64,000 bases of DNA. Source: Opitutia bacterium. GTDB taxonomy: Bacteria; Verrucomicrobiota; Verrucomicrobiia; Opitutales; Opitutaceae. Position numbers and translations under genes: made by a program. Of the stretch, positions 39,819 through 62,446 are shown piece by piece. The stretch is from contig JACPIT010000005.1 of assembly GCA_016187945.1 (NCBI GenBank), positions 1,426,001-1,490,000 of the forward strand. Direction: 5' to 3'. Below the pieces are notes generated by a model, which saw only the letters and a list, made by a program, of their open reading frames with translations, had not been told where the DNA came from and searched no databases. Every line of letters starts with the position of its first letter. Within the stretch, counting starts at the first letter, position 1.

Positions 39819-39844
39819 GCAACAGAAGAAGAGTGCCGTTGATG

Positions 39845-39914
39845 GAGGTAGGGCGGGACCGCTGGGCCCGCCGCGAACGAGTTTTCGGCGCGACCAGCGG
39901 TCCCGCCCTACCTC
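39845..39914. repeat. Long REP-like inverted repeat (21-bp perfect arms, 28-nt spacer)
   Basis: GAGGTAGGGCGGGACCGCTGG (39845-39865) and CCAGCGGTCCCGCCCTACCTC (39894-39914). Confidence 0.8.
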
Positions 39915-39996
39915 AAACGCGGAGCGTTCATCCTTTCCGTAGTTCCGCGTCGAGCACGTTGAGGTCAACGCGCTCCATCTGACTCCGCACTTTCGC

Positions 39997-44174: not shown

Positions 44175-45601
44175 ATCCCTCTCCGCTTCGCATCGGACTT
44201 TTCGGCATCGGCCTCGACGCCTACTGGCCGCAGTTCGCCGGTTTGAAGGAACGTCTCGAAGGTTACGTCGCCCAGGTCGCCGCGCGCCTCGCCCGGCCCG
44301 GCGTCGAGGTCGTCAACGTCGGCCTGGTCGACAATCCCGATCGCGCGCACGCCGCGGGTCGCGAGCTGCGACGCGCGGACGTCGACGTGATTTTCCTGCA
44401 CGTGACGACCTACGCGCTCTCGTCGACCGTGCTGCCGGTCGTGCTGCGCGCCAGGGTGCCGGTGATCGTCCTGAACCTCACGCCGTCGGCGGCGATAGAT
44501 TACGCGGCGTTCAACGCGCTCGGCGACCGCACGCGCATGACCGGCGAGTGGCTGGCGTATTGCGCAGCGTGCCCGGTGCCGGAGATCGCCAACGTCTTCC
44601 AGCGCGCGAGCGTGCGATTTCATCAAGTCACCGGCGTGCTCGATGAAGATCCGGCATGCTGGCGCGAGATCGACGCATGGGTCGAGGCCGCGCGCGTGGC
44701 CGCGGCGATGCAAGGCAACCGCCTCGGGCTGATGGGGCATTACTACAGCGGCATGCTCGACATCCAGTCGGACGTGACGCTCCAGTGCGCGACGTTCGGC
44801 ACGCACGTCGAGCATCTCGAAGTCGACGAGCTGTCGGCGCTGCGGCGCGACGTTTTGGCGGCCGACGTGCAGGCGCGCATGAGCGAGTTTCGAGAAAAAT
44901 TCGACGTGCAGGGCGACTGCGGCGCGGACGATTTGCTCGAAGCGGCGCGCACGTCGGTGGCGCTCGATCGCCTTGTGGCGCAGCATCGGCTCGGCTCGCT
45001 CGCTTACTACTACAAGGGCACCGGCGTCGCCGAAAACGAGACGACGGTCGCGTCGATCATCCTCGGTTGCTCGCTGCTCACGGCGCGCGGCGTGCCGGTC
45101 GCGGGCGAATACGAGGTGAAGAACGTTCAGGCGATGAAGATCATGGACCTGTTCGGCGCCGGCGGGTCGTTCACCGAATACTACGCGATGGATTTCAAGG
45201 ACGACGTCGTGCTGATGGGCCACGACGGTCCGGGGCACATCGCGATCGCCGAGGGCCGGACAAAAGTGCGACCGCTGAAGGTTTATCACGGCAAGGTCGG
45301 CCGCGGCGTCTCGGTCGAGATGGCGGTGAAACACGGCCCCGTCACGTTGCTTTCCGTGATCGAGCAGCCGGGCGGCAAACTTGCGCTCCTTTGCGCGGAG
45401 GCCGACTCGGTGCCCGGTCCGATTCTCGAAATCGGCAACACGAACAGCCGCTATCGTTTCGCGTGCGGCGCGCGGGAATTCGTCAATCGCTGGAACAGCC
45501 ACGGCCCCGCGCACCATTGCGCCGTCGGCGTCGGGCATATTTCGGCCAAAATCGAAAAACTCGGCGCGCTGCTCGGCTTGGAGACGATCCGCGTGACGTG
45601 A
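44171..45601 (+). CDS. L-arabinose/L-fucose isomerase-like protein
   Basis: 476 aa; LRIGLFGIGLDAYWPQFAGLKERL...VIFLHVTTYALSSTVLPV...GEYEVKNVQAMKIMDLFGAGGSFTEYYAMDFKDDVVLMGHDGPGH. Confidence 0.82.
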   Translation: MNPSPLRIGLFGIGLDAYWPQFAGLKERLEGYVAQVAARLARPGVEVVNVGLVDNPDRAHAAGRELRRADVDVIFLHVTTYALSSTVLPVVLRARVPVIVLNLTPSAAIDYAAFNALGDRTRMTGEWLAYCAACPVPEIANVFQRASVRFHQVTGVLDEDPACWREIDAWVEAARVAAAMQGNRLGLMGHYYSGMLDIQSDVTLQCATFGTHVEHLEVDELSALRRDVLAADVQARMSEFREKFDVQGDCGADDLLEAARTSVALDRLVAQHRLGSLAYYYKGTGVAENETTVASIILGCSLLTARGVPVAGEYEVKNVQAMKIMDLFGAGGSFTEYYAMDFKDDVVLMGHDGPGHIAIAEGRTKVRPLKVYHGKVGRGVSVEMAVKHGPVTLLSVIEQPGGKLALLCAEADSVPGPILEIGNTNSRYRFACGAREFVNRWNSHGPAHHCAVGVGHISAKIEKLGALLGLETIRVT

Positions 45602-45698
45602 TCCGCGTCGTCGCGAGGTGCGTTCCGCCGCCGGCGAGCACGATGTCGATGAAGACGATGCTCAGAAACGCGACGAGCGAGGCGGGAGCGGTGTGCAT
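45600..45698 (-). pseudogene. Possible truncated N-terminus of a TerC/YjbE-like membrane protein
   Basis: Reverse strand ATG 45698: MHTAPASLVAFLSIVFIDIVLAGGGTHLATTRIT...; first ~22 residues resemble TerC-family N-termini (..IDIVLAGDNA..), then similarity stops. Confidence 0.35.
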
Positions 45699-46930
45699 CA
45701 GGAATCGCCGGCCTCGACCACGATGCCATCGCGCTGGAGTTGCGCGTAGCGCGCGGCGTCGCAGCCGATCTCGCCAAGCAGTTCGCGGTTGTGCTCGCCG
45801 AGCCGCGGAGCGGGCGTGCGGATGCTGCCGGGTGTGCCGAGGAGCCGCGGCACGACGTGGTGCATCGGCAACCGATCCATCTCCGCGTCCGGGTAGTCGG
45901 CGACAATCTCGCGCTCGACGAAATGCGGGTCGTCGAGGATTTGCCGCACGTCGTAGATCGGACCGACGGTCACCTCGGCGCGTTCGAAGAACGCGACGTT
46001 CTCCGCCTGCGTGCGCTGCGCGATGAACGCGCCGACGATCGCGTCGAGCTCCGGTGCGTGGGCGACGCGGGCGGCGTTGGTGCGGAAACGCGGGTCGTCG
46101 ATCAACTCGGCGCGACCGATCGCGCGCAGGAGTCGCTCCGCCATCGCCTGCGTCGAGCCGGAGAGCGCGACGTAGGCGCCGTCGGCACACCGGTAGCAAT
46201 TACGCGGTGCGGAATTCGTCGAGCGGCTGCCGGTGCGCGGCTTCACTTGCCCGGTGAGACGGAAATTGGCGGCCTGCGGACTCAGGATCGCGAACAGCGG
46301 GTCGAGCAGCGGCAGGTCGATCACCTGGCCGCGGCCGCCGTTTTGTTCGACGTGCCGCAGTGCGATCATCACGGCCGAGGCGCCGTAGAGGCCAGCGACG
46401 CCGTCGGCGAGATACATCGGGGGCAACACTGGCTCGCGATCGGCAAAACCGTTGAACGAGGCGAAGCCCGACATGCCCTCGACGATCGTGCCGAAGCCGG
46501 GGCGCTGGCTGTAAGGGCCGTCCTGGCCCCAGCCGGAGATGCGGACGATCACGAGCCGCGGGTTCAGCCGCAGCAATTCGTCGGGCGCGAGTCCCATCTT
46601 TTCCAGCACGCCGGGGCGGAAGCTCTCGATGAGCAGCGTGGCGCTCGGCACGAGCTGGCGGACAATCTCCGCGGCCTCCGGGCGGCGCAAGTCGAGCGCG
46701 AGGCTCTTCTTGTTTCGCGCATAGATTTTCCAGTGCGTCGAGACTCCCTGCGTCTGCCAGGCGCGCAACGTGTCGCCCTCGGGCGGCTCGACCTTGATGA
46801 CCTCCGCGCCGAAATCGCCGAGGATCTGGGTGAGCACGTTGCCGGCGAAAAGGCGCGAGAGGTCGAGGACGCGCACGCCGTTCAAGGGACCGGGCGCCGC
46901 CGGCGTGTAGTCGCGTGGGTGGAGCGGCAT
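45698..46930 (-). CDS. CaiB/BaiF-type (family III) CoA-transferase
   Basis: GPLNGVRVLDLSRLFAGNVLTQILGDFGAEVIKVEPPEGDTLRAW...NKKSLALDLRRPEA. Confidence 0.93.
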   Translation of the reverse strand: MPLHPRDYTPAAPGPLNGVRVLDLSRLFAGNVLTQILGDFGAEVIKVEPPEGDTLRAWQTQGVSTHWKIYARNKKSLALDLRRPEAAEIVRQLVPSATLLIESFRPGVLEKMGLAPDELLRLNPRLVIVRISGWGQDGPYSQRPGFGTIVEGMSGFASFNGFADREPVLPPMYLADGVAGLYGASAVMIALRHVEQNGGRGQVIDLPLLDPLFAILSPQAANFRLTGQVKPRTGSRSTNSAPRNCYRCADGAYVALSGSTQAMAERLLRAIGRAELIDDPRFRTNAARVAHAPELDAIVGAFIAQRTQAENVAFFERAEVTVGPIYDVRQILDDPHFVEREIVADYPDAEMDRLPMHHVVPRLLGTPGSIRTPAPRLGEHNRELLGEIGCDAARYAQLQRDGIVVEAGDS

Positions 46931-46933
46931 GGC

Positions 46934-47785
46934 TTAGCGAGTGGCGGCGTTCGCGGCGGCGGCGAGGACCGCGTGCGCGCGACGGATGAACGGCGCGTCG
47001 ATCATCCGGCCATCGAGGGTGAAGGCGCCGGCGTGGACCTTCGCGGCTTCGACGACGCGGCGCGCGAAATCGATCTCCGCGGCGCTGGGCTGGAAAACCT
47101 CGTTGGCGATCGCGATCTGGCTGGGGTGAACGCAGGACTTGCCCAGAAAACCGAGATGCTTCGCGCCGGTCGCCTCGGCGCGGAAACCGTCGGCGTCCTT
47201 GATCGCGCCGTAGGCGGCGTCGTAGGCCCAGATGCCGGCCTCGCCGGCTGCGAGTCGCACGGCGAGTTGGAGCTGCTGGATGACGGCGGCGTTCGTGCGA
47301 TCGATGCCGAGCGGTTCGAGCAGGTCGGCGAAGGCGAGTTGGAGGCCCACGACGCGTGAGTCAGCCGCAGCGATCTCGGCCGCGCAACGCAGCGCGCGCG
47401 GCGTCTCGATGTTCGCCAGGATGGCGATGCGGCGATCGAGGCCGCGCGCCTGTTCGAGTTGCGCGAGCGCCGCGCTCGCAACGCGGATGTCGGCGGCCGA
47501 ATCGACTTTCGGCAGGTTCACGTAATCGAGACGCGCGTGCACGATCGCGGCGAGATCGGCGGCGAAGTGCGGCGTCGTGATCGCGTTCACGCGCGCGATC
47601 ATGATTTTCGTCGTGGCCGCAAACTCGGGCGAGGCGAGTGCTGCGGCGAGATTTCCTCTCGCCGCGTCCTTGTGTTCCTCGGCGACGGCGTCCTCGAGGT
47701 CGAACGAAAGGCTGTCAGCGGCGCTGGCGAGCGCCTTCGGGAAAAGCTCGGGACGCGAGGCGGGGACGAACAGCTTGCTGCGCAT
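46934..47785 (-). CDS. HpcH/HpaI aldolase family CoA ester lyase (CitE-like)
   Basis: MRSKLFVPASRPELFPKALASAADSLSFDLEDAVAEEHKDAAR...GKSCVHPSQIAIANEVFQPS. Confidence 0.92.
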   Translation of the reverse strand: MRSKLFVPASRPELFPKALASAADSLSFDLEDAVAEEHKDAARGNLAAALASPEFAATTKIMIARVNAITTPHFAADLAAIVHARLDYVNLPKVDSAADIRVASAALAQLEQARGLDRRIAILANIETPRALRCAAEIAAADSRVVGLQLAFADLLEPLGIDRTNAAVIQQLQLAVRLAAGEAGIWAYDAAYGAIKDADGFRAEATGAKHLGFLGKSCVHPSQIAIANEVFQPSAAEIDFARRVVEAAKVHAGAFTLDGRMIDAPFIRRAHAVLAAAANAATR

Positions 47786-47789
47786 GGGA

Positions 47790-49982
47790 TCAGGAGACGT
47801 CGGCCGCGCAGCGGAAGCCGATCATGCCGCTGCGGTCCTTGCTGGGCGCCATGAGCAGGTATTTGCCGTGCTGGTCGAGTTGGTAGGCGGGGGGGAAATA
47901 CCAATGCGAGCTTTGCGGCTGATAGGCGCTGCCGCCGCGCAGCGCTGCGGCGCGCGTGTGCGCATCGCGGAATTCGTCGGTCCACTGCCAGACGTTGCCG
48001 ACGAGGTCCATGACGCCGAACGGGCTCGCGCCGTCCGGGTGGGCGTCGACGTCGTCGGGCGGCACGAGCGTGCGGCCGCGATTCGGTTTCGGCATCGCCG
48101 CGGGGCGCCAGTCGTTGCCCCACGGATAGAGGCGGCCGTCGACACCTTGCGCGGCGTAGTGCCACTCCCACTCGCGGGGCAGGCGCTTGCCGGCCCACGC
48201 GGCGTAGGCGCGCGCATCTTCGAGCGAGACCCAAGTGACGGGCTTTTTCTCCCAGCCCGCGAGTGGTGCGCCGTGCCGCCAGTGACGGAGAAAATTATGC
48301 TCGTCGTCGGGCCGATAGCCGGAGGCGTCGAGGAAGACTTTGAAGTCGGCATTCGTAACCGGGAAACGGTCGAGGTGGAACGCCGGAACGTGCAGGCGAT
48401 GCCAATGGGCGCGGCGCGGCGTGGATTCCCACGGGTATTGAAAATCGAGTCCGCTCCACGTGAAACCTTCGATCTCGACCCCCATCACCTTGAAATCGAA
48501 TTCGCCGGCGGGGATCGTCACCATGCCGCGCGGAGCGGCCGCGAACGGCGGCGTGGCGGCGATGGGCACGATCTCCTGCGGGAGCGCCCGCCACTCGGCC
48601 GAGAGCGATTGCAGCGGCGTGCGGGCGAGCGCGGCCACGCGCGCGAGGAAATTTTCCAGATCCGCGACTTCGCAGCCGGGTTCGAGCGCGAGCACTGCAC
48701 CGAAGCCGCGCGTCTCGAGCGGGAAGGCGAGCGTGGCCTGGCCGCCGGCGAGGCGCGGTGTCAGCGCGCCGCCGTTCCACACATCGAAGTAGCGCCGGCC
48801 TTCGCGGTGCTCGACGACGAGCTGGTCGCCGGCGAGTTCGTGTTCGTTGCGATTGACGACGGTCCAGAGCGTCGAATCGGCCGTCGGGAAGCGCGACGCG
48901 AACACGTTGTGCTGCACGGTCGCCGCGTAAGGTTCCCACTCGAGGCTCACGACGTGTCGCGGGAATTGCCGGTAGATCGTCGCGATGCGGCGCAGCGTCT
49001 CGGCGTCGCGGGGCGTGAGCTGGTTCCAGACGCCCCAGATGTTTTCCCAGGCGTTGTAGCCGATGCCGTTGAAAAAAATGTAGTGGAAGTCGTTCGCGCG
49101 GTCGCGGCCCCAGCGGTTCTCGATGTTGCTCATGTGCCGCGGCTCGAGCCATTTCAATTTGCTCACGGCCGGGATCACTTCGGTGGGGATGTGTTTGCCC
49201 CAGCTCTGCAGGTTCCACATCAGCGCCTCGTCGGAGAGCGGCACGGCTTCGGGCTGGAAGACGAGCGGGTGGCCGATGGCGTCGGCGGCGTCGAGGAACG
49301 CGCGCGGCACGCCGCTGTAAGTATCGCCGTTCACGCCGTCGGCCCCGACTTCCTTCGCGAGGCGCGCGATCGCCACCCAGTCGGGGATTCCGGCGGGGCA
49401 CGTGCCGTTGTCCCACGGCATCGTCGGAATGAAGACCTTCACGCCGCGCCGGTGAAAATCGGCCACGACCTGGCGCAACCCTGCGAGTCCGCCCGGCAGA
49501 TCGGCGGCGAGCTCGAATTGGTTGCGGTCGTCGATGCCGACGTTCGGGTAAACATACCACAGCAGCACGCTGTCGATGCCGCCGAAGCGCGCCTCCAGGT
49601 CGTCGAGGTAGCGATCGACCGTGTAGCGGCGCGCGACCGGGTCGTAGAAGAAGCGGTCCTCGACCATCAACTGCGCATGCACGAAATTCCGCTGCGCCCA
49701 CGCGAACTCGGGACGCTCGTAATTCGCGCCGCTGTAGCCCATCCGCGTCAGGTGCTCGCGCCGCCAGTCGCGAAAATCGCGGCGCCAGGCCTCCGCGCGC
49801 GTGCGGATGTCCATTTTCCAATGGCCGATGTTTTGAAACGGCCAGCCGGGCGCGCTGGCGGGCAGGGGCAGGTGCGGGCCATTGCGGGCGTGCGAGAGCT
49901 GGAACTCGGCCGCCGACGCGGACGGAGCCCGTTGCGGCGGGGGCAGGGGAGCGGGAGTTCCCGCGGCGGAGGCGTCGGACAT
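47790..49982 (-). CDS. TIM-barrel (glycosidase-like) domain fused to C-terminal SUMF1/FGE-sulfatase domain
   Basis: ATG 49982. N-terminal WPFQNIGHWKMDIRTRAEAWRRDF...HRRGVKVFIPTMPWDNGTCPAGIPDWVAIARLAKEVGADGVNGDTYSG; C-terminal MVTIPAGEFDFKVMG...VTWVSLEDARAYAAWAGKRLPREWEWHYAAQG...ALRGGSAYQ...GMIGFRCA. Confidence 0.85.
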   Translation of the reverse strand: MSDASAAGTPAPLPPPQRAPSASAAEFQLSHARNGPHLPLPASAPGWPFQNIGHWKMDIRTRAEAWRRDFRDWRREHLTRMGYSGANYERPEFAWAQRNFVHAQLMVEDRFFYDPVARRYTVDRYLDDLEARFGGIDSVLLWYVYPNVGIDDRNQFELAADLPGGLAGLRQVVADFHRRGVKVFIPTMPWDNGTCPAGIPDWVAIARLAKEVGADGVNGDTYSGVPRAFLDAADAIGHPLVFQPEAVPLSDEALMWNLQSWGKHIPTEVIPAVSKLKWLEPRHMSNIENRWGRDRANDFHYIFFNGIGYNAWENIWGVWNQLTPRDAETLRRIATIYRQFPRHVVSLEWEPYAATVQHNVFASRFPTADSTLWTVVNRNEHELAGDQLVVEHREGRRYFDVWNGGALTPRLAGGQATLAFPLETRGFGAVLALEPGCEVADLENFLARVAALARTPLQSLSAEWRALPQEIVPIAATPPFAAAPRGMVTIPAGEFDFKVMGVEIEGFTWSGLDFQYPWESTPRRAHWHRLHVPAFHLDRFPVTNADFKVFLDASGYRPDDEHNFLRHWRHGAPLAGWEKKPVTWVSLEDARAYAAWAGKRLPREWEWHYAAQGVDGRLYPWGNDWRPAAMPKPNRGRTLVPPDDVDAHPDGASPFGVMDLVGNVWQWTDEFRDAHTRAAALRGGSAYQPQSSHWYFPPAYQLDQHGKYLLMAPSKDRSGMIGFRCAADVS

Positions 49983-50056: not shown

Positions 50057-50068
50057 GCAAACGTTTGC
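50057..50068. promoter_or_regulatory. LacI-type operator GCAAACGTTTGC
   Basis: Perfect 12-bp palindrome between divergent genes 47790-49982 and lacI-type 50206-51210. Confidence 0.8.
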
Positions 50069-50205
50069 GCGAAGCTGGGCGTAAAGTCTACCAAATTAAT
50101 CCGCGCGCGACGGAGGCGGGGCTTGCTTGGCGGCGGAGGCGGGCGCACAACATCCTCCGAACCGCGACGCGCTTTCGTGCGCCGCGGCCTCGCCCCCCTC
50201 TGCTC

Positions 50206-51210
50206 ATGCCGAAAACTCCCAGCCTGATCGACGTCGCCCGCCGGGCGAAGGTGAACATCTCCACCGTTTCGCGCGTGCTGAACGGCACCGGCAAGATCGG
50301 CGAGGAGACGCGCGCCCGCGTGCTCAAGGTCATGCGCGAGACCGGCTACAAGCCGAACCGCGTCGCCCGCCGCCTGCGCACGACGGGCGGCACCAGCCAC
50401 CTGCTCGGCCTGATCATCCCGAACATCCAGAACATTTTCTTTGCGGATCTCGCGCGCGGCGTCGAGGACGTGGCCTACAGCAACAATTTCGCCGTCCTGC
50501 TCTGCAACTACGACGAGGACGAGGCGCGCGAGCGTTTTTATCTCGATGTAATGCAGTCGGAGTCGGTCGACGGCATCATCCTGCCGCCGATTCACGAGCA
50601 CGATCCCGCGGTGATGCAGGTCGTGAAGTCCGGCGTGCCAGTCGTGTGCGTCGACCGCAGCCTGGCGGTCGGAAACCTCGACAAGGTGGAAGTCGACAAC
50701 CACCGCGGCGCGCTCGAAGCGGTGAATCACATCATCGCCCAAGGGCACAAGCGCATCGGGCTGATCGGCGGTCCGGCCGATTCCTCCACGGGCCGCGAGC
50801 GCCTGCGCGGCTACAAGGACGCGCACGCGGCGGCGGGCCTGTCGGTCAAGGCTGAGCTGATGCGCTTCGGCGATTACAAGCAGGGCTCCGGCCAGGTGCT
50901 GGCGAACGAGCTGCTCTCGTTGTCCGATCCGCCGACGGCGCTCTTCGTGTGCAACGGCCTGATGACGGCGGGCGCGCTGGAGGCAATCGCTTCGCGCGGC
51001 CTGAAGATTCCGAAGCAGGTGGCGATCGTCGGTTTCGACGAGATGCCATTGGCGAGCGTGTTCAACCCGCCGCTCACCGTCGTGCGCCAGCCGGCCTACG
51101 AGGTGGGAAAGTGCGCGGCGGAGCTGCTGCTGAAACGCATCGAGGCTCCGAATCGCCCCGCCACCAGCCTCCGCTTGGTGCCGGACCTGATGGTGCGGAA
51201 GTCCTGCTGA
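50206..51210 (+). CDS. LacI-family transcriptional regulator
   Basis: MPKTPSLIDVARRAKVNISTVSRVLNGTGKIGEETRARVLKVMRETGYKPNRVARRLRT; periplasmic-binding-like domain. Confidence 0.96.
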   Translation: MPKTPSLIDVARRAKVNISTVSRVLNGTGKIGEETRARVLKVMRETGYKPNRVARRLRTTGGTSHLLGLIIPNIQNIFFADLARGVEDVAYSNNFAVLLCNYDEDEARERFYLDVMQSESVDGIILPPIHEHDPAVMQVVKSGVPVVCVDRSLAVGNLDKVEVDNHRGALEAVNHIIAQGHKRIGLIGGPADSSTGRERLRGYKDAHAAAGLSVKAELMRFGDYKQGSGQVLANELLSLSDPPTALFVCNGLMTAGALEAIASRGLKIPKQVAIVGFDEMPLASVFNPPLTVVRQPAYEVGKCAAELLLKRIEAPNRPATSLRLVPDLMVRKSC

Positions 51211-51251
51211 GGACGTGTCGCGCGACAGGATTCACTTGACGCCGAAGTAAG

Positions 51252-51263
51252 GCAAACGTTTGC
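51252..51263. promoter_or_regulatory. LacI-type operator GCAAACGTTTGC
   Basis: Perfect palindrome 36 bp upstream of the ribokinase ATG. Confidence 0.8.
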
Positions 51264-51299
51264 TCTACGTCCGTCCTCCTCAACCCCCTTTCGTGTTTC

Positions 51300-52277
51300 A
51301 TGGCCTCCGCTCCTCAGGTCGTCGTCGTCGGCAGCATCATGCAGGATCTCACGCTCGCTTGCGCCGAGTTTCCGCAGCCCGGTGAAACCACCGTCGGAAA
51401 ACTGCGCACCGGGCAGGGCGGCAAGGGCTCCAATCAGGCGATCGCGTGCGGCAAGACCGGCGTGCGCACGGTCTTCGTGGGAGCGATGGGCGACGATGCT
51501 TACGCTCGGCAGGTGGCGGCGTTCTACCGGCGCGAAAAGATCGGCTGCCGGCTCGCGCTGAAGCCCGACCAGGCCACGGGCACGGCGGTGATTTTGATCA
51601 ACGACCGCGGACAAAACGAAATCGTCATCGAGGCTGGCGCGAATGCGGCGCTGCGCGCGCGCGACATTCCGGCCACTCTCCTCGCGCGGACGAAAGTTCT
51701 GATCACGCAGTTGGAGTCGAATCTTTCGACCACGGCGCACGCGCTGCGCGTGGCGCGAGATGCGGGCACCCTCACCGTGCTGAACCCGGCGCCGATGCGA
51801 GTGGATTTCGATGCGCGGCTGCTGCGGCATGTCGACGTGTTGATTCCGAACGAGAGCGAGTTCGCCGCGCTGGTGCGCGTGTTGCCGCAGGTGCGGGAAA
51901 CCGGGTTCGACGAACGGACGCTCCACGCGCTTGCGGATGCGGAGTTGCACGCGCTCTGCCGGAAGATCGGCGTCGCCACTGTCATCATCACGCTCGGGGA
52001 GCGCGGTTGTTTTGTTTCGGAGCGCGACGCGTTCACGCGCGTGCCGGCGCATCGCGGGCTCAAGGTGGTCGACACGACCGGCGCGGGCGACGCGTTTTGC
52101 GGCGGCTTCGCTGCCGGTCTCGTGCGGAGCGGCGGAAAAATCGTCGATGCCGTTCGCCTCGGCACCGCGGTTGCGGCGTTGTCGGTGACGAAGGCGGGCG
52201 CGGCTCCGTCGATGCCGAGTCGTGCCGAGCTCAAGCGGTTTCTCGGGCGCGAGCAGTCCGCGGCGTGGGGCCTCTGA
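51300..52277 (+). CDS. rbsK: Ribokinase / PfkB-family sugar kinase
   Basis: VVVVGSIMQDLTLACAEFPQPGETTVGKLRTGQGGKGSNQAIACGKTG...VVDTTGAGDAFCGGFAAGL. Confidence 0.88.
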   Translation: MASAPQVVVVGSIMQDLTLACAEFPQPGETTVGKLRTGQGGKGSNQAIACGKTGVRTVFVGAMGDDAYARQVAAFYRREKIGCRLALKPDQATGTAVILINDRGQNEIVIEAGANAALRARDIPATLLARTKVLITQLESNLSTTAHALRVARDAGTLTVLNPAPMRVDFDARLLRHVDVLIPNESEFAALVRVLPQVRETGFDERTLHALADAELHALCRKIGVATVIITLGERGCFVSERDAFTRVPAHRGLKVVDTTGAGDAFCGGFAAGLVRSGGKIVDAVRLGTAVAALSVTKAGAAPSMPSRAELKRFLGREQSAAWGL

Positions 52278-52278
52278 A

Positions 52279-54138
52279 CTAGTCCGGCGCGAGCGAAAAC
52301 CACGTGAGCCGCCACGTGCGATCGCGCCGGCCGCCGGCCTCGAAGTAAGGCTGCAACATCAACGGCTCGCGGTAGCCCAGATCGAGGCGCAGCGCGGGAC
52401 CGATCGCATCGGCGGGCGGCGGCAAGGTCTCGATCCGCGGCTCCTCCGGCAGCCGCAGCGTTTCGTCGGTTTTGAAGCCGTCGATCAGCGCCGAGGCGTA
52501 GACGAGCGGCCCGTGTGTGATCGCCGCGTATTCGAAGCGCAGCACTTCCTGCGCGACCGGAGATCCGTCCGGTGCGCGGGACTCCTGAACGTTGCGATTG
52601 GTCCGCCGATGCACGCGCGGGCGCATTTCCATTTCGACGGCCACGATGTCGCCGGGCGACCAGACGCGATCGAGTTCGAGATAGCCTGCGGCGTGCGGCG
52701 TGGCGCGATGGGTGGCATCGCCGACTGTTGCGGTGAAACTCTCCGCCCAACTCGGCGTGCGCAGACGCAGCGCGAATTTCGCCGGGCGCTCCGGCGACAC
52801 GTGAATCCGGACGGAGCCGGCGAACGGATACTGCGTTTCCTGCCGCACGCGCACGGAGCCGGCGACGGGATGAACCAGGGAGGCGTCGGCCGGACCGTAG
52901 AGGTTCACCGCGATGCCGCCGTCGGGCGCGAGCGAATAGGTCGCGAGCGGCAGTTCCTCGAGCGCCATCGGCCCGCTCGATTTGCAGCAGCGCCAATACG
53001 TCGTGAAGATGCGCCGGCCGTTCGGAAACGAGTAGTAGCACCAGTTGTCGCCGCCGGGAGCCTGGGCGCCGAGCAGGTCGTTGTAGGCGGATTTTTCGAT
53101 TTCCTCGGCGAATTGCGCCTCACCGGTTTGGAGCAGCAACTCGCGATTCAACTGAATCCAGGCGAGCGTCGAGCACGTCTCGACGTAGCCGTGCGGATCG
53201 AACACCGGCCGCGGATTGAAGACTTCGCGCGAGCGATGCGCCACGCCGCCCCACGGTCCGCCGCCGAGAGTGAGGTGGTGATCGCGGATGTTTTGCCACG
53301 CGCTGCGGACGGCGCGCGCGAGACGCTCGTCGCTCGTGGCGCGGCCGAGCTTGGCGATGCCGACGAGATTCCAGCAGAGCTGGTAGGCTTTGCCGGTGGC
53401 CAGATTCGCGGCGTCGACGTCCGACAGGATTTGCTCGACGAGATTGAGCGCGGGCGTCGCTTCGATTTCCGCGAGGATCAATCGCGCCAGCGCCAGGTAG
53501 CGCGGCTCGCCCGTGGCGAAGTAGAGTTCCATCGCGGGGTCGATCAGCACCGTGGCCGAGAGTCCATGGTGGTTGCCGAGTGAGGTGACGGGAATTTTCT
53601 GATCGTGAAATGTGCGCGAGCACAGGTCGCCGATGCGCCGGGCCGCTTGCAGGTAACGCGGCTCGGCGAGTGCGCGCGAGGCCTCGAGCAACCCGAGAAT
53701 CAGGTAGCTGTGCACCCAGATGTCCCACGTGCGCTGCGCCGGCGCGCCGTCCCACGTGAGCGGCGCCGGACCTTGGCGGCACATGAATCGTCGGTTCGAC
53801 GCGTAGGTGCCCAGATAGCCGTCGGCATCCTGCCGCTGCACGAGAAAATCCGCCACGCGGCGCACACTCGCCGCAAGCACGGAGTCGGACGCCTGCGCCG
53901 CGGCGCGCGCGGCGGCGACGAGCCACTTGCCCGCGTGCTCGCCATACCAGTCTCCCTCCTGATTGCCGCACACCTGCTCGGCGCGAAACAGCGCGATCGC
54001 CGGACTGGCTTCGCTCTCGATGAACGTGGCGAGGTGATGTTGGCGGCTCAGTCGCAGCGCGTCGCCCAGGACGCCGGCGAGAGCGACGCGGGTGAGGGAC
54101 GAATGGGCGAACCGGTCCGAAGGATTCACTGGGATCAT
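52279..54138 (-). CDS. GH127-like beta-L-arabinofuranosidase
   Basis: IALFRAEQVCGNQEGDWYGEHAGKWLVAAARAA...FLVQRQDADGYLGTY...VETCSTLAWIQLNRELLLQTGEAQFAEEIEKSAYNDLLGAQ...YWRCCKSSGPMALEELP. Confidence 0.88.
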   Translation of the reverse strand: MIPVNPSDRFAHSSLTRVALAGVLGDALRLSRQHHLATFIESEASPAIALFRAEQVCGNQEGDWYGEHAGKWLVAAARAAAQASDSVLAASVRRVADFLVQRQDADGYLGTYASNRRFMCRQGPAPLTWDGAPAQRTWDIWVHSYLILGLLEASRALAEPRYLQAARRIGDLCSRTFHDQKIPVTSLGNHHGLSATVLIDPAMELYFATGEPRYLALARLILAEIEATPALNLVEQILSDVDAANLATGKAYQLCWNLVGIAKLGRATSDERLARAVRSAWQNIRDHHLTLGGGPWGGVAHRSREVFNPRPVFDPHGYVETCSTLAWIQLNRELLLQTGEAQFAEEIEKSAYNDLLGAQAPGGDNWCYYSFPNGRRIFTTYWRCCKSSGPMALEELPLATYSLAPDGGIAVNLYGPADASLVHPVAGSVRVRQETQYPFAGSVRIHVSPERPAKFALRLRTPSWAESFTATVGDATHRATPHAAGYLELDRVWSPGDIVAVEMEMRPRVHRRTNRNVQESRAPDGSPVAQEVLRFEYAAITHGPLVYASALIDGFKTDETLRLPEEPRIETLPPPADAIGPALRLDLGYREPLMLQPYFEAGGRRDRTWRLTWFSLAPD

Positions 54139-54184
54139 GACAAAAAAGTTGACACCGGACGTAAAACGAAAATGGTGCGGTCAC

Positions 54185-54196
54185 GCAAACGTTTGC
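54185..54196. promoter_or_regulatory. LacI-type operator GCAAACGTTTGC
   Basis: Perfect palindrome 46 bp upstream of the GH127 start (minus strand). Confidence 0.8.
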
Positions 54197-54362
54197 CTAA
54201 CCACGCGACGTTTGCCGAGTCACCCCTCTCCGCAAGCTCAATCATGCCTCAGCCCACCCCGGCTCCCCGGTTCGCTCGTGTCGCGTTTGTCCGTGGCCGG
54301 GAGTGGTCCACGCCTTGATTTCCCCTCGGCTTCCGTCGGCGGCCTACCTTTTTCATCGTAGA

Positions 54363-54374
54363 GCAAACGTTTGC
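54363..54374. promoter_or_regulatory. LacI-type operator GCAAACGTTTGC
   Basis: Perfect palindrome 15 bp before the TonB receptor ATG at 54390. Confidence 0.8.
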
Positions 54375-54389
54375 CTGACCCCAAACCCC

Positions 54390-56570
54390 ATGAACTCAAA
54401 TCAGTCTAGCAAGAAGACCAACGCCGCGGCGGCCTGCTCGCTGCTGCTCGCGCTCGGCGTGCTGCCCGCGTTCGCGCAGGAAGCGGCGCCGGCATCGAAG
54501 GACGAAAAACAGCCCGCGAAAAACGAAGAGGTCGTCAACCTCGGCACGTTCACCGTCACGACCGGCTACCGTTCGCCGAAGTCCGTCGACCAGATTCCCG
54601 GTGCGGTGAAGCTGATCACACCGGACGAGATTGCGCACACCACCTTGCTCACGGAGGACGCGACAGCGGTGCTGTCCCGCACGGTCCCGGGCTACGCGGA
54701 AGCCACGCAGTCGATGAACAACACCGGCGAGACATTGCGCGGCCGCGTCGCGCTGCGTCTGTTCGACGGCATCTCGCAGACGACGCCGCTGCGCGAGGGC
54801 AGCCGCAACGCCACCTTCACCGACATGGGCATCGTGGACCGCATCGAAGTGATCAACGGCCCGTCGGCGGTCGAGGGCATCGGCGCCGCCGGCGGCATCA
54901 TCAACTACATCTCGAAGAGCGCCACGAAGGAGGGAAGCGAGGCGACGCTCACGACGCGCTACTCGTCCCAGGGCTACGACGACAGCGAAAACTGGAAAGT
55001 CGGCCTCAATTACGCGCACAAGGACGGTCCGACCGACGTCTATTTCGCAACGGCCTTCGCGGATCGCGGCATGGCCTACGACGCGCACGGCCGCCGCATG
55101 GGCATGAGCCAGAGCGGTTCGATCAACGACTCCGAGGAGCGCAATCTCTTCATCAAGGTCGGACGCAACTTCGGCGCGAATAATTCGCAGCGGGTCGCGC
55201 TCACCGTCAGCCGCTTCATGCTCGAGGGCAAAGGCAACTACGTGCAGGATCTCGGCAATCGCGCCACCGGGCTCACCGATTCGTCGAAGCGCGGCGTGCC
55301 GTTCGGTGCGAAGACGGAGTTCAACCGTTTCAACCAGGTCGCGCTCGGCTATACGAACAACAACCTCCTCGGCGGCACGCTCACGCTCAACGCCTACAAA
55401 GCTAGCCAAGCCATGCGCTTCGTCGCGGAGAAGGGCGGCGCCGACAAGCAGGATCCGCTCATCGCGCCGCTCGGCGAACTCACCGACCAGTCGGAAATCA
55501 ACTCGCAGAAGAAGGGCGTGCGCAGCTCCTGGTCCGGCGAGAATCTTTTCAAGATCGACGGCTCCGAACTTCAGGTCGGCTACGATTATCTCGACGAGAC
55601 CGCGCAACAGCTCCTCGCGCTCACCGGCCGCGTCTGGGTGCCGCCGATGAACTACACGAGCAACGCGCCGTTCGCGCAGGCTTCCTACACGCAGGGGCCC
55701 GTCACCGTCAGCGGCGGCGTCCGCCGCGAGGACGGTCGTCTCCAGGTCGACGACTACACCACCACCTATTTCCGCAACCGCGTGGCCGTCACCGGCGGCA
55801 CTTTGAAATACAAGGCGACGCTCCCGAACGCCGGCGTGATCGTGCGCCTGCCGCAGGGCTGGTCCGTGTTCGGCTCCTACAGCAAGGGCTTCACGCTGCC
55901 GAACGTCGGCATCCCGCTGCGCAACGTGAACACGCCCGGCCAATCCGTCGCCGGCATCCTCGATCTCCAGGCCGTCATCGTGGACAACAAGGAGGGTGGC
56001 GTCTCCTGGCACGGCAAGCGCGCGAGCTTCAGCGCGTCCTACTATCGCTCGTATTCCGCGCTCGGTGTCTCGCTGACCGTCGATCCGGTGACGAAGGACT
56101 TCATCATGCAGCGCCGTCCGGTGCGCATCACGGGTTTCGAGTTCACCGGCGACTACAAGATCACGCCGGACCTCAAATTCACCGCGCTCTACTCGCACAC
56201 GAAGGGCATGACCGTCGCCACCGAGGGCGGCCCGCTCGTGGTCCAGCAAGGTGTTTCGACGGTGAGTCCGGACAAGATCGGCACCTCGCTCAGTTGGAAC
56301 GTCAATCCGAAGGCCACGCTCACGCTCAGCAGCACCACGCTGCTCGACCGCGAGATCAATGTCGGCCTCGGCTCCTACGAAAAAACCACCGGCTACACGC
56401 TCGTGAACCTCACCGCCACCTACCGCACGAAGTGGGGCGATCTCTCCCTCGGCGTCGAGAACCTCCTCGACAAATACTACATCCTCACCTGGGCGCAGAT
56501 TGACCAGTTCCAGAATTATTTCGCGGGACGCGGCCGCGTGGTGTCGCTCACGCACTCGATCAAATTCTGA
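54390..56570 (+). CDS. TonB-dependent receptor
   Basis: ATG 54390 MNSNQSSKKTNAAAACSLLLALGVLPAFAQ signal peptide; the ORF start at 54303 would translate the operator. Plug VVNLGTFTVTTGYRSPKSVDQIPGAVKLITPDEI...; barrel ending VVSLTHSIKF. Confidence 0.94.
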   Translation: MNSNQSSKKTNAAAACSLLLALGVLPAFAQEAAPASKDEKQPAKNEEVVNLGTFTVTTGYRSPKSVDQIPGAVKLITPDEIAHTTLLTEDATAVLSRTVPGYAEATQSMNNTGETLRGRVALRLFDGISQTTPLREGSRNATFTDMGIVDRIEVINGPSAVEGIGAAGGIINYISKSATKEGSEATLTTRYSSQGYDDSENWKVGLNYAHKDGPTDVYFATAFADRGMAYDAHGRRMGMSQSGSINDSEERNLFIKVGRNFGANNSQRVALTVSRFMLEGKGNYVQDLGNRATGLTDSSKRGVPFGAKTEFNRFNQVALGYTNNNLLGGTLTLNAYKASQAMRFVAEKGGADKQDPLIAPLGELTDQSEINSQKKGVRSSWSGENLFKIDGSELQVGYDYLDETAQQLLALTGRVWVPPMNYTSNAPFAQASYTQGPVTVSGGVRREDGRLQVDDYTTTYFRNRVAVTGGTLKYKATLPNAGVIVRLPQGWSVFGSYSKGFTLPNVGIPLRNVNTPGQSVAGILDLQAVIVDNKEGGVSWHGKRASFSASYYRSYSALGVSLTVDPVTKDFIMQRRPVRITGFEFTGDYKITPDLKFTALYSHTKGMTVATEGGPLVVQQGVSTVSPDKIGTSLSWNVNPKATLTLSSTTLLDREINVGLGSYEKTTGYTLVNLTATYRTKWGDLSLGVENLLDKYYILTWAQIDQFQNYFAGRGRVVSLTHSIKF

Positions 56571-56606: not shown

Positions 56607-58991
56607 ATGCGTTTCCTGCCGGCCCGGCTTCTCGGACTGCTGCTTCTGCTTCCGGGAAGTCTGGCGCTCGCGGAGAACCTGATTTCCGTCCGCACGGAGA
56701 TGCTGCCTGCGCTGCCGGACGGCGCGGACGGGCGCGGTGTGTTGTTCGCGGCGGAGCAACCGACGCTCCTTCGCGCCACCCAGGCATGGCGGCTCGAAGG
56801 CCGCCCCGCGCGCTGGACGGCGATTCCGGCTCCCGCGCCGTTTTCCGGCGTCGTCGGCGCGATCGAGCACGGCACGAATCCGTTTCTGATTTCAGGGGAT
56901 CGGGGGCAGCCGGGGGCGGTTGAAGTCCGCGCCTGGCGCACCGCACTCGCGCTGCCCCCCTTGCCCGAGCGGCTGACGAGCGTCGCGGGCGCCGTCGCGG
57001 GCGACGCGTTGCATGTCGCCGGGACCGACGCGGCGGGCGCGGCCCGCCTGTTCGTCCTCACTCCCGGCGCGCCCGATGCCGCGTGGCGGAGCGCCGCCGC
57101 GTGGCCATCCGCCGGCGAGGCCCGCGGCGCCGCGGCGCAGGAAGGCGCGTTTTTCCTCGTCGTGCGCGAGGTGGCGGTGGACGGGCTCTGGCGATGGTCG
57201 ACGAAGGATGGCTGGGCGCGCCAAGGCACATTGCCCGGCCAACTCGTCGACGGCACCCTGCGCGCCGTCGGTCAGGCGCACCTGCTCTTCGCCGTGCATC
57301 GCGCGGGCGGCGCGGATCGGCTGGCGACATTTCATCTCGTGACTCGCTCGTTCGCGTTTCAAGGGGCGGACCTGCCGGGCCGGATCGAGCGCGGCGTGGC
57401 GTGGCGCAACGGCCTGTTGCTCGAATCGCGCGATGCGATGGGCGCCGCGGCGTTCGTGGGCTGCGAGCTGGACGGCAGCAAGCAACTGCTCCGGCCGCTC
57501 GATTGGGTGGCGCTCTTCGCCTACCTCGGCGGCATCGCGGCCATCGGCTACTGGTGCTACGTGCGCGAGAAGAAGCAGTCGACCGCGTCGTTCTTCGTCG
57601 GCGGCCGCTCGATCCCGTTCTGGGCCGCCGGCATCAGCCTCTACGCGTCGAACTCGAGTTCGATCGGCTACATCGCGACGACCGCGAAAGCCTACACGAC
57701 CAACTGGCAGTATTTTCTCGGCAACATCGTCAACGTGTTCGCGCTCGTTTTCGTCGCGCTCTGCATCGTGCCGCTGCTGCGGCGGCTCGAGCTGATGTCG
57801 GTGTTCACCTATCTCGACAAACGTTTCCACCGCTCCGTCCGCATGGCGGCGAGCGGCATGTGCATCCTGATGCACCTCGGCGGACGGATGAGTGTGATCC
57901 TCTTCCTGCCTTCGCTCGCGATTTCGACGGTCACCGGGCTCGATGTGATCTGGAGCATCCTGATGATGGGCGTCGTCACGATCGCCTACACCGCGCTCGG
58001 CGGCATGAAGGCCGTCATCTGGACCGACGTCGCGCAGGTGATCGTGAAGTTCGGCGGCCTGTTCTTCGCGCTCGGTTTCATCCTCTGGTCGCTCAAGGGC
58101 GGCTCGCGCGAGTTCCTCGCGGTCGCGGCGGCCGACGACAAGATGCGCCTCGTCGATTGGAGCTTCGATCTCACGAAGGCGACGATCTGGTGCTTCGTGT
58201 TTCTGCAACTGATGGAAACGGTGCTCACGTTTCCGAAAGACCAGGTGCTGATGCAGCGGGTCTTCGCCACGAAATCGGTCAAGGAGGCGGGGCGCTCCGT
58301 GTGGATTTTCGCCGCGCTCGTGCTGCCTGGCAGTCTCATTCTCTACCTGATCGGCACGGGACTGTATGTTTACTACCACAGCTTTCCCGAGCGCATGAAT
58401 CCGCTGCTGCCGAACGACGCGACGCTGCCGCTCTTCATTGCGGCCGAGTTGCCCGCCGGCGTCACCGGGCTCGTGCTGGCGGGCCTGTTCTCCGCCGCGA
58501 TGGGCACGCTCTCGAGCATCCTCAACAGCGTGTCGACGCTGGTGTCGGTGGATTTCTACGAACGCCTCGCCGCGAAGCCCGATCCGAAGACGAGCATCCG
58601 CATCGCCGAGTGGGTGACCGTGCTCGCCGGCCTCATCGGCATCGGCCTCGCGATCCTGCTCTCGCGTTTCAACATCAGCTCGTTCCTCGACGTCGCGCTC
58701 GAGCTGGCCGGCCTGTTCGGTGGCGCGTTCGGCGGCGCCTACACGCTCGGCATGTTCACCCGTCGCGCGAACTGGCAGGGCGTGCTCATCGGCATGGGCT
58801 TCAGCTTCGTCGCGACCTTCGCGGTCTGGCTCGGGAAACTCGTGCATCCGTTCCTCTATCTCGCGATCTCGATCCTCTTCTCGATCGTGGTGGGCTACGT
58901 CGCGAGCCTGTTCTACCCGCCGCCCGCGCCCGAATCCCTCAAGGGCCTCACCATCCTGCGCGAACCGGACGATGCGCGCGCCACGAGCTGA
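56607..58991 (+). CDS. Sodium:solute symporter (SSS) with N-terminal secreted propeller/Kelch-like domain
   Basis: Signal peptide, ~300 aa beta-rich repeats, then DWVALFAYLGGIAAIGYWCYVREKKQSTASFFVGGRSIPFWAAGISLYASNSSSIGYIATTAKAYTTNW...TYTALGGMKAVIWTDVAQV-type SSS core. Confidence 0.9.
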   Translation: MRFLPARLLGLLLLLPGSLALAENLISVRTEMLPALPDGADGRGVLFAAEQPTLLRATQAWRLEGRPARWTAIPAPAPFSGVVGAIEHGTNPFLISGDRGQPGAVEVRAWRTALALPPLPERLTSVAGAVAGDALHVAGTDAAGAARLFVLTPGAPDAAWRSAAAWPSAGEARGAAAQEGAFFLVVREVAVDGLWRWSTKDGWARQGTLPGQLVDGTLRAVGQAHLLFAVHRAGGADRLATFHLVTRSFAFQGADLPGRIERGVAWRNGLLLESRDAMGAAAFVGCELDGSKQLLRPLDWVALFAYLGGIAAIGYWCYVREKKQSTASFFVGGRSIPFWAAGISLYASNSSSIGYIATTAKAYTTNWQYFLGNIVNVFALVFVALCIVPLLRRLELMSVFTYLDKRFHRSVRMAASGMCILMHLGGRMSVILFLPSLAISTVTGLDVIWSILMMGVVTIAYTALGGMKAVIWTDVAQVIVKFGGLFFALGFILWSLKGGSREFLAVAAADDKMRLVDWSFDLTKATIWCFVFLQLMETVLTFPKDQVLMQRVFATKSVKEAGRSVWIFAALVLPGSLILYLIGTGLYVYYHSFPERMNPLLPNDATLPLFIAAELPAGVTGLVLAGLFSAAMGTLSSILNSVSTLVSVDFYERLAAKPDPKTSIRIAEWVTVLAGLIGIGLAILLSRFNISSFLDVALELAGLFGGAFGGAYTLGMFTRRANWQGVLIGMGFSFVATFAVWLGKLVHPFLYLAISILFSIVVGYVASLFYPPPAPESLKGLTILREPDDARATS

Positions 58992-59928
58992 TTTTCTTCG
59001 GCGTCTCGCGACCGCGGTTGCGTTCGCCCTCGCCGCGCTCGCGCTGCGGGCCGACGAGACGCCGGGGCAGGGAACGCTCGTCGAGGAAAGCTGTGCGTCC
59101 GCCGCGCTCGGTCACGCGCTGGGATTTCTCGTCTATCTGCCGGCGGGCTACGACGCCGCGCCCGCGCGCACTTATCCGACGCTCTATCTCCTGCACGGTC
59201 GCGGCGATTCGATGCAGGCCTGGCGGCAAGCGAAGCCGCTCCTCGACGCGCTGATCGCCGACGGAAAAATCCCGCCGCTGATCGCGGTCATGCCCGACGC
59301 GCCTTCGAGCCGGCGCGCCGGCTATTACGTCGATTCGCAATTTGCCGGCACGGACCAACTGCCGGCGGGCGAGGCTGTCGAAACCGCGCTCACGCGCGAC
59401 CTCATCGCTCACGTCGATCGCACCTACCGCACCCGCGCGGAGCGCGACGGGCGCGCCGTCGCCGGCTACTCGATGGGCGGCTACGGCGCGGCGCGATTTG
59501 CGTTCGCGCATCCGGAGCTTTTTGCGTCCGCGATCGTGCTGAGCCCTGCGCTCTACGAACCGCTGCCACCGGTCGACTCGAGTGCGCGCACCTTCGGCGC
59601 CTTCGGACGTGGCGCGGCCCGCTTCGACGAGGCGATCTACCGCGATCTCGCCGCGCCGTGGCTCGACGTGAAAAATGACGAGCGTCTCCCGCTGCGCCTG
59701 TTCATCGCCGTCGGCGACGACGAGCCGATCCGCGACGCGACCGGTGAAAGCCTCACGACCGACGCCGTGCGTTTCCACCAACATTGTCGCCGGCACCCGC
59801 AGGTGGAAGCCCAGCTCCGCGTGCTCGACGGCGGGCACGACTGGAAAGTCTGGCGCGCCGGTCTCGCCGCCGGTTTCGAGTGGTGTTGGTCCGTCGCGCG
59901 GGTCCAGGCGAACGAAACGCAGCGATAG
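58972..59928 (+). CDS. Secreted alpha/beta-hydrolase esterase (esterase D / feruloyl-esterase-like)
   Basis: ATG 58972; LGFLVYLPAGYDAAPARTYPTLYLLHGRGDSMQAW...VAGYSMGGYGAARFAFAHPELF...VLDGGHDWKVWR. Confidence 0.88.
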   Translation: MRAPRADFLRRLATAVAFALAALALRADETPGQGTLVEESCASAALGHALGFLVYLPAGYDAAPARTYPTLYLLHGRGDSMQAWRQAKPLLDALIADGKIPPLIAVMPDAPSSRRAGYYVDSQFAGTDQLPAGEAVETALTRDLIAHVDRTYRTRAERDGRAVAGYSMGGYGAARFAFAHPELFASAIVLSPALYEPLPPVDSSARTFGAFGRGAARFDEAIYRDLAAPWLDVKNDERLPLRLFIAVGDDEPIRDATGESLTTDAVRFHQHCRRHPQVEAQLRVLDGGHDWKVWRAGLAAGFEWCWSVARVQANETQR

Positions 59929-59956: not shown

Positions 59957-62446
59957 TTACGGCTCGAACCGGAAGGTCGACGTTTGGGTCAGGCGCGCCG
60001 GGGACGTGTCCGTCGAAGTTACCGTGATCTGAACCGCGCCCGGTCTTCCCGTGGAGCGGAGGATCGCCAGCGCCCGGCCGCGAAACGTGGTCGTGTGCGA
60101 GTCCGTCAGCGAACCGACGGACGCCGGATCGCCGGTCCCGAACGCGCACAATTCCGCCTCGCCCGCGACTTCGATCGTGAGCGGCAGCGCGGCGTCCGGC
60201 ACGCGCGCGCCCGCAGCGTCGACCACGGAGATCGGCACGAAAATCAGCGCGGCGCGGTCCACGCGTCTGTGCGCCGGCTCGGGCTCGAGGCGCAGTTGCG
60301 CCGGCGCTCCGGTGGTGCGCAGCGATTTCGTGGCGAGCTCGCGTTGGCCGTCGAGCGCCGTCGCGGTGAGCGTGCCCGCGGACCACGGCACGGTGAAGCG
60401 CGCGGCGAGACCTTTCGCGGGATCGATGTCTTGTTCGCCGACGATCTTGCCGTCGAGTGCGAGGCGGACGCGCGGCGCGCGGCTGTAGACGGAAACTTGC
60501 AGCGGTTTTCCCTCCTGACCGGGCCAATTCCAGCTCGGCAACTCCGCCGGCCACCCCCACGAGCCGACTTTTTCTTTCTTCCCGGTCGGCACCGGCTCGT
60601 GCACGAGCAGCTCGATCGCGCTGCGCCGCCACACGACGTCACGATAAAGCGACTGCGGCTTCTTGTCGCCGATCACGTCGAGGTCGCCGCACCAGCTATT
60701 CCACACCGGCCACGGCTGATGCGCCGCGTCCTGTCCGTCGCCGACGATCGCGCTCGCGTCGACGTAGCCCGTGTGACCGATGCCGGACTCGCCGAGATAA
60801 TCCATCGCGCTCCAGACGAAATCGCCGATGACGAACGGCAGGCGCTCGACCGCGTTCCAGTTTTCCCAGGCCTCGTTCGGATACGACTCCGCGCCATACA
60901 TCACGCGACTCGGGTGCCGCAGGTGATCGCTCTCGTATTTCTGCCAGCGGTAGTTGTAGCCGCCGACGTCGAGGATGGAAAACGCCGCGTCGTTCAGCTC
61001 CCAGCGGTCGCCGACCGACGGATCTTCCCACAGCAAGTTGACCGACGCAGTCACGCCGCGGCGCGGATCCTCGCGATGCACCAGCTCCGCGAGTCGCCGG
61101 CCGATCGCGACGCCGGCCGGATTGAACCGCTCCGGAATCTCGTTGCCGATGCTCCAGAGGACGACCGACGGGTGGTTGAAATCGCGCGCGATCATCGTCG
61201 CGAGGTCGCGCTCGGCGTGCGTGTCGAAGTAGCGCTGGTAGCCGTTGCGCTTCTTCGGGAGCTGCCAGCTATCCGCGAACTCGTCGATGACGAGCATGCC
61301 TTCCTCGTCGCACGCTTCGAGAAACGCGATCGACGGCGGATTGTGCGCGGTGCGAATCGCGTTGAAGCCGTTCGCCTTCATCAAGCGCACGCGGCGACGC
61401 TCGGCGTCGGGAAACGCGCGCGCGCCGAGCAGGCCGTTGTCGTGATGAAGATTGCCTCCGCGCAGTTCGAGCGGCCGGCCGTTGAGGCGGAAACCGTGCT
61501 CCGCGTCGATCGCGACGGTGCGCACGCCGAAGCGCGTCGTCAGGTCGTCGATCGCGCGGCCATGCTCGCGGACGCGAAAATGCGCGCGGTAGAGCTGCGG
61601 TGTTTCCAGCGACCAGAGCTGCGCCTTGCTCAGCCACAACCAGGCGTTCGCCCACTCGGTGGCGGACGGGGCGAGCCGGAGCTGGCCGAGTTCGTGTCGC
61701 GTCGTCGTGCCGTCGGGCGCGGTCAATTCGAGTTCGAGGTCGGCATCGCGCGGGACGGCCCGTTCGTTGCACACCTGGACGCGCACGTGCACGCTGGCGC
61801 GGTCGTTCTGCGGATCGATCCAGATTGTGTCGACGCGCGCGCCCCACGTCGGAACGAACAGATCGTCGTGTCCGCGCAGCGTGACGCTGCGGTAGAGGCC
61901 CGAGCCGGAATACCAGCGGGAGTTGTTCTCGGGATTGGCGACGCGGATCGCGATCGTGTTCGGCTCGGGGCGCGGGCGGAGAAAACGGCCGATCTCCACG
62001 CGCGCGGGCACGTAGCCGTGCGGCTGAAAGGCCGCGTGCGTGCCGTTGACCCAGACATCGCACTCCTGCTGTGCGCCGTGGACGATCAACTCGAGTCCGC
62101 TGCCGGCCGGCCGCTCGGCATCGGTCAGCGTGCGTCGATACCAACCCACGCCGCCGCGCGCGTAGCCGACGTCGGAGCCGCTCGGGGCGTTGCGATCGTG
62201 CGGTCCGGCAACGCCGTCGGCGGCCGGCAAATCCTCGATGCTCCAGTCGTGCGGCAGATCCAGCGCGCGCCACGCCGAGTCGTCGAACTCGCGCGCTTCC
62301 GCGCCCGCGACGTCGCCGCGGTGGAAACGCCAGCCGAGGTCGAGCGCTTGTTCCGCAGCGATGGCACTGGCGGCGGAGAGCAAGAGCGAGGACGCGACGG
62401 CCAGGACAGGAAACGCGGGGAGGGGAGGCGTGCGGGGCGACAGCAT
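59957..62446 (-). CDS. GH2 beta-galactosidase-like enzyme, secreted
   Basis: ATG 62446 signal peptide; DLGWRFHRGDV...SAWRALDLPHDWSIE...GFNAIRTAHNPPSIAFLEACDEEGMLVIDEFADSW...HPSVVLWSIGNEIPERF. Confidence 0.92.
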   Translation of the reverse strand: MLSPRTPPLPAFPVLAVASSLLLSAASAIAAEQALDLGWRFHRGDVAGAEAREFDDSAWRALDLPHDWSIEDLPAADGVAGPHDRNAPSGSDVGYARGGVGWYRRTLTDAERPAGSGLELIVHGAQQECDVWVNGTHAAFQPHGYVPARVEIGRFLRPRPEPNTIAIRVANPENNSRWYSGSGLYRSVTLRGHDDLFVPTWGARVDTIWIDPQNDRASVHVRVQVCNERAVPRDADLELELTAPDGTTTRHELGQLRLAPSATEWANAWLWLSKAQLWSLETPQLYRAHFRVREHGRAIDDLTTRFGVRTVAIDAEHGFRLNGRPLELRGGNLHHDNGLLGARAFPDAERRRVRLMKANGFNAIRTAHNPPSIAFLEACDEEGMLVIDEFADSWQLPKKRNGYQRYFDTHAERDLATMIARDFNHPSVVLWSIGNEIPERFNPAGVAIGRRLAELVHREDPRRGVTASVNLLWEDPSVGDRWELNDAAFSILDVGGYNYRWQKYESDHLRHPSRVMYGAESYPNEAWENWNAVERLPFVIGDFVWSAMDYLGESGIGHTGYVDASAIVGDGQDAAHQPWPVWNSWCGDLDVIGDKKPQSLYRDVVWRRSAIELLVHEPVPTGKKEKVGSWGWPAELPSWNWPGQEGKPLQVSVYSRAPRVRLALDGKIVGEQDIDPAKGLAARFTVPWSAGTLTATALDGQRELATKSLRTTGAPAQLRLEPEPAHRRVDRAALIFVPISVVDAAGARVPDAALPLTIEVAGEAELCAFGTGDPASVGSLTDSHTTTFRGRALAILRSTGRPGAVQITVTSTDTSPARLTQTSTFRFEP

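Follow-up and report, generated by a model that had tools for sequence, protein, structure and literature searches.

A predicted local LacI regulon of the RbsR type, with four identical operators, in Opitutaceae

Introduction

RbsR and other LacI-family regulators of local sugar regulons recognize even palindromes with a central CG, mostly 30-140 bp before gene starts, control their own genes, and have ribokinase-family genes among their targets (survey PMC4052901). The locus described here appears to share these features. It differs in that uptake appears to rely on a TonB-dependent receptor and an SSS symporter instead of an ABC transporter, and in the addition of a GH127 or ADP-ribosylglycohydrolase gene, a GH-FGE fusion, a CoA-transferase and a CitE-type lyase. 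Its kinase carries Met in place of ribokinase Asn14, and one operator (D) lies nearer to the start codon than is usual. The ribose utilisation systems (RUS) of Bacteroides combine a ribokinase with outer-membrane uptake and glycosidases. The present locus likewise joins a ribokinase-family kinase to such functions, but no SusD-like gene was identified in it and the regulator is of a different type. The Salmonella deoxyribose locus encodes DeoK, a PfkB kinase for deoxyribose that phosphorylates ribose too (PMC13432705); its regulator and transporter differ from those found here, and it lacks glycosidases. A literature search found no published report of our cluster. As a kind of sugar-gene switch it is known and ordinary; this regulon is a new instance.

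The cluster lies in the genome of an Opitutia bacterium (5,471,390 bases, 16 contigs). Coordinates refer to the window, that is, the whole stretch of 64,000 nucleotides that was analysed (Table 1).

Table 1. Genes and operator sites of the predicted regulon, in window coordinates.
Feature	Position	Strand	Basis and remarks
CoA-transferase family III	45698..46930	-	Domain/model matches
HpcH/CitE-type acyl-CoA lyase	46934..47785	-	Domain/model matches
GH-FGE fusion: predicted alpha-glycosidase-like TIM barrel with FGE-like domain, without the FGE cysteine pair	47790..49982	-	Alignment, fold match
Operator A, GCAAACGTTTGC	50057..50068	none	Divergent promoter region of GH-FGE operon (-) and lacI (+); kept in orthologues
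LacI-family repressor, RbsR-like, 334 aa	50206..51210	+	Pfam LacI and Peripla_BP_3; best NCBIfam matches are RbsR models, below cut-off
Operator B, GCAAACGTTTGC	51252..51263	none	Upstream of ribokinase-like gene; kept in orthologues
PfkB ribokinase-family kinase, Asn14 to Met	51300..52277	+	Domain/model matches and alignment
GH127 family protein	52279..54138	-	Domain match; ADP-ribosylglycohydrolase instead in L051 and L064
Operator C, GCAAACGTTTGC	54185..54196	none	Upstream of GH127; kept in orthologues
Operator D, GCAAACGTTTGC	54363..54374	none	15 bp upstream of TonB-receptor start codon; kept in orthologues
TonB-dependent receptor, siderophore-receptor type	54390..56570	+	Domain/model matches
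SSS-family symporter, N-terminal extension of about 300 aa	56607..58991	+	Domain/model matches
PF00756 esterase	58981..59928	+	In line with TonB-SSS genes in the window

The Operators and Their Regulator

A preliminary description of the window had reported four perfect copies of a 12-mer, GCAAACGTTTGC, placed 15-140 bp before gene starts, and had proposed that they define a local LacI regulon. The four copies are exact, and the measured gaps to the start codons are 74 bp (GH-FGE gene), 137 bp (lacI), 36 bp (kinase), 46 bp (GH127) and 15 bp (TonB receptor). Pattern searches of the whole genome returned these four sites and no scattered copies, with none for the reversed pattern used as control. 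Copies with one mismatch number 8 against 6.4 expected, and those with two mismatches 186, a background level given 169 for the control. Across the window, matches with up to three mismatches are no more numerous than in shuffled sequences, and only the exact copies are therefore significant. Since the one-mismatch copies lie near expectation and mostly within ORFs, nothing points to additional targets and the regulon looks closed. Base composition predicts 0.15 exact copies per genome. On these counts, chance origin, a dispersed repeat and a global regulon were all rejected.

The 12-mer has the form of a LacI-type site: a conserved even palindrome with a central CG, lying before the target operons and before lacI itself. 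The regulator has an HTH and a periplasmic-binding-protein-like domain (Pfam). It scores 226 bits against the RbsR NCBIfam model (cut-off 531) and misses all NCBIfam equivalog cut-offs widely; a sister LacI on an rbs-type operon is also below the RbsR cut-off, at 233 bits. At locus L071 a sister LacI gene directly precedes genes for a substrate-binding protein, an ABC ATPase, a permease and a PfkB kinase (an rbsBACK-type operon), with an operator identical to GCAAACGTTTGC in between, and two other sister genes adjoin a nucleoside hydrolase and a ribokinase-family kinase. Alignment to a ribose-type binding protein shows that the sugar-pocket motifs are kept; as in RbsB, these are probably the ribose contacts.

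The recognition helix varies together with the operator. Sister regulators with '-IST-' in this helix (one has '-ISS-', one '-VST-') adjoin GCAAACGTTTGC or a one-base variant, and those with '-IAT-' adjoin, at loci that yielded a site, GTAAACGTTTAC or a near variant. The two groups split in the tree with moderate support, and the co-variation, which may represent one single evolutionary change, ties the site to this line of LacI proteins.

Conservation among Opitutaceae

Among 250 sampled genomes of the family, 17 in addition to the source genome encode a close LacI orthologue (76-98% identity); carriers with named records are assemblies of Opitutus, Lacunisphaera and other Opitutaceae. The gene order is kept: CoA-transferase, CitE-type lyase, GH-FGE, site, lacI, site and kinase, followed by GH127, site, site, TonB receptor, SSS symporter and esterase. 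Some loci have an added sulfatase or alpha-amylase-family gene. Orthologous sites are exact in 57 of 64 cases, at the same four promoters, and one base off in the others; to either side, the motif extends to a purine at position -2 and a pyrimidine at position +2. At least two exact sites occur in 17/18 genomes with a close LacI orthologue versus 5/232 without (Fisher p 5e-21, uncorrected for kinship). One genome (G266, locus L069) has a close orthologue, yet only one-mismatch sites, and no site was found there directly before the TonB gene. With start codons picked by homology, the distance from Operator D to the receptor start codon is 10-16 bp at 12 of 14 loci, and the sites of the kinase and of GH127 are 26-85 bp upstream of theirs.

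Two regions use the 12-mer in another setting. Three exact copies at L063 (G017:C1:4143000-4162900), a region from which this LacI is absent, have MFS and melibiase-like genes nearby, and may belong to another regulator that uses the same site. At L061 (G256), a LacI that is 70% identical is accompanied by three exact sites upstream of two TonB receptors of another type, which is a case of the same operator with a different target set.

The operators, their uniqueness, their conservation and their co-variation with the regulator can all be read from the sequences compared here. Taken together with the co-occurrence of site and regulator, they argue for a local, self-regulating LacI regulon. 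The regulator itself is tied to the sites indirectly, as predicted binding, through co-occurrence and co-variation. The autoregulated local regulon and the gene assignments of the preliminary description are supported.

The Genes of the Regulon

The kinase had been described as a ribokinase. It belongs to the ribokinase family and scores 269.6 against the ribokinase model, under the cut-off of 299.65, with the caveat that Met occupies the Asn14 position (E. coli numbering) in all 20 aligned orthologues (19 distinct loci), whereas kinases from related ribose-type loci keep Asn14 in 5/5. The six other ribose contacts (Asp16, Gly42, Lys43, Asn46, Glu143 and Asp255) are invariant in the aligned kinases; with 6/7 contacts kept, the full ribokinase set is thus not present.

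In two relatives, L051 and L064 (the latter being the L046 locus again), an ADP-ribosylglycohydrolase takes the place of GH127. In another family of the phylum, at L093:3405-7007, ADP-ribosylglycohydrolase and GH127 domains share one frame of 1200 aa, which adjoins a ribokinase and a GH-FGE relative. That such a swap occurs, and that a distant relative combines the two domains, suggests that the two families can serve related furanosides.

The label SUMF1 fusion has to be amended: the FGE (SUMF1) cysteine pair after the RGGS motif is absent from the FGE-like domain in 14/14 orthologues. AlphaFold modelled the whole protein poorly (pLDDT 49) and its N-terminal part at pLDDT 70, with a loose match to GH13/GH27-type barrels (TM about 0.4-0.5). 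By fold, and with modest confidence, the partner domain is predicted to be an alpha-glycosidase-like barrel. This domain has no Pfam match, gave none in a profile search against PDB sequences, and is possibly an undescribed glycosidase family. A search for GH-FGE across the phylum found only two loci beyond the family, L093 and one without a matching cluster.

The siderophore type of the TonB receptor hints at a small conjugate as substrate, and the presence of a CoA-transferase and a CitE-type lyase suggests that an acid is degraded as well. The esterase had been grouped with the TonB receptor and SSS genes. The window bears this out; most relatives, however, have it in the opposite orientation, with no adjoining operator seen.

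Proposed Mechanism and Alternatives

We infer repression, the effector and the order of the pathway as follows. A LacI dimer would bind four copies of the 16-bp palindrome RNGCAAACGTTTGCNY. From the divergent region common to both, it would repress its own gene and the GH-FGE/CitE-lyase/CoA-transferase operon; it would likewise repress the ribokinase-like gene, GH127 and the TonB receptor-SSS(-esterase) operon, until released by an intracellular ribose-type pentose or derivative. The TonB receptor and the SSS symporter would import a small pentose-containing conjugate, GH127 would split the glycoside, the kinase would phosphorylate the pentose, and the CoA-transferase and lyase would break down the acid set free. 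We consider a local autoregulated RbsR-type LacI regulon with this mechanism and pathway probable.

Local sugar regulators of the LacI family usually repress. Operator D is so close to the start codon in most loci that bound protein would block expression, which favours repression; that LacI is instead an activator, or acts in both directions, seems very unlikely. Ownership of the sites by another or global regulator of the PurR kind is hardly credible. The 12-mer does resemble the core of PurR-type operators, but its few copies all surround this LacI and its presence tracks this LacI, and no placed LacI paralogue of the genome falls within the clade, although several paralogue branches are long and their placement is unsure.

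The preliminary description had predicted a glycan containing L-arabinofuranose or another pentose. A pentose-type sugar is in keeping with the RbsR-like regulator and the ribokinase-family kinase; these same genes count against arabinan, and an L-arabinose regulon induced by L-arabinose freed by GH127 is improbable. The name of GH127, beta-L-arabinofuranosidase, and an AraA-like isomerase at 44177-45601 speak for it. Neither AraB nor AraD is in the regulon, however, GH127 is replaced in two relatives, and the isomerase, at 42 bits, falls far below its cut-off of 622, lacks an operator and adjoins rhamnosidase genes that are not seen beside the cluster in relatives. These form a rhamnose cluster at 36654-45601 (GH78, a RhaT-type symporter, GH106 and the divergent isomerase) without an operator. 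A GH2 gene (59957-62446) and a GH78-like gene (62583-64000) downstream of the regulon also have none. L-arabinose is thus unlikely, and the substrate is predicted to be ribose-like. Met at the Asn14 position is a deoxyribokinase signature, as in the Salmonella deoxyribokinase. Instead of D-ribose, the substrate of the kinase and the pathway could be 2-deoxy-D-ribose or a different 2-modified pentose, with the regulon otherwise unchanged; this is a serious possibility, to which we give somewhat less than an even chance. The uniform Met beside six invariant contacts fits it, as does a deoxyribose-phosphate aldolase gene elsewhere in the genome. Asn14 contacts ribose (PMC9604405), and 2-deoxyribose selection of E. 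coli yielded N14D and N14S (PMC6452873). On the other side, DeoK accepts ribose as well, and a plant ribokinase with an Asn-to-Ala change kept its ribose activity according to work cited in PMC9604405. A plasmid search for kinase relatives gave no named deoxyribokinase among them. No specific natural substrate, among those considered, could be supported.

Implications

We tentatively suggest, as a possibility well short of probable, that Opitutaceae have a pathway not described before, whose substrate would be a small conjugate in which a 2-deoxy- or 2-modified ribofuranoside is joined to a hydroxy acid. The sugar would be freed by GH127 or ADP-ribosylglycohydrolase and phosphorylated by the Met-type kinase, and the CoA-transferase and CitE-type lyase would cleave the acid, with a single RbsR-like switch in control of all these genes. 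Clues to the natural substrate come from the kinase signature and from the CoA-transferase/lyase pair. Since the regulon looks closed and is well conserved, in a group that has received little study, its genes can be treated as one pathway and examined jointly.
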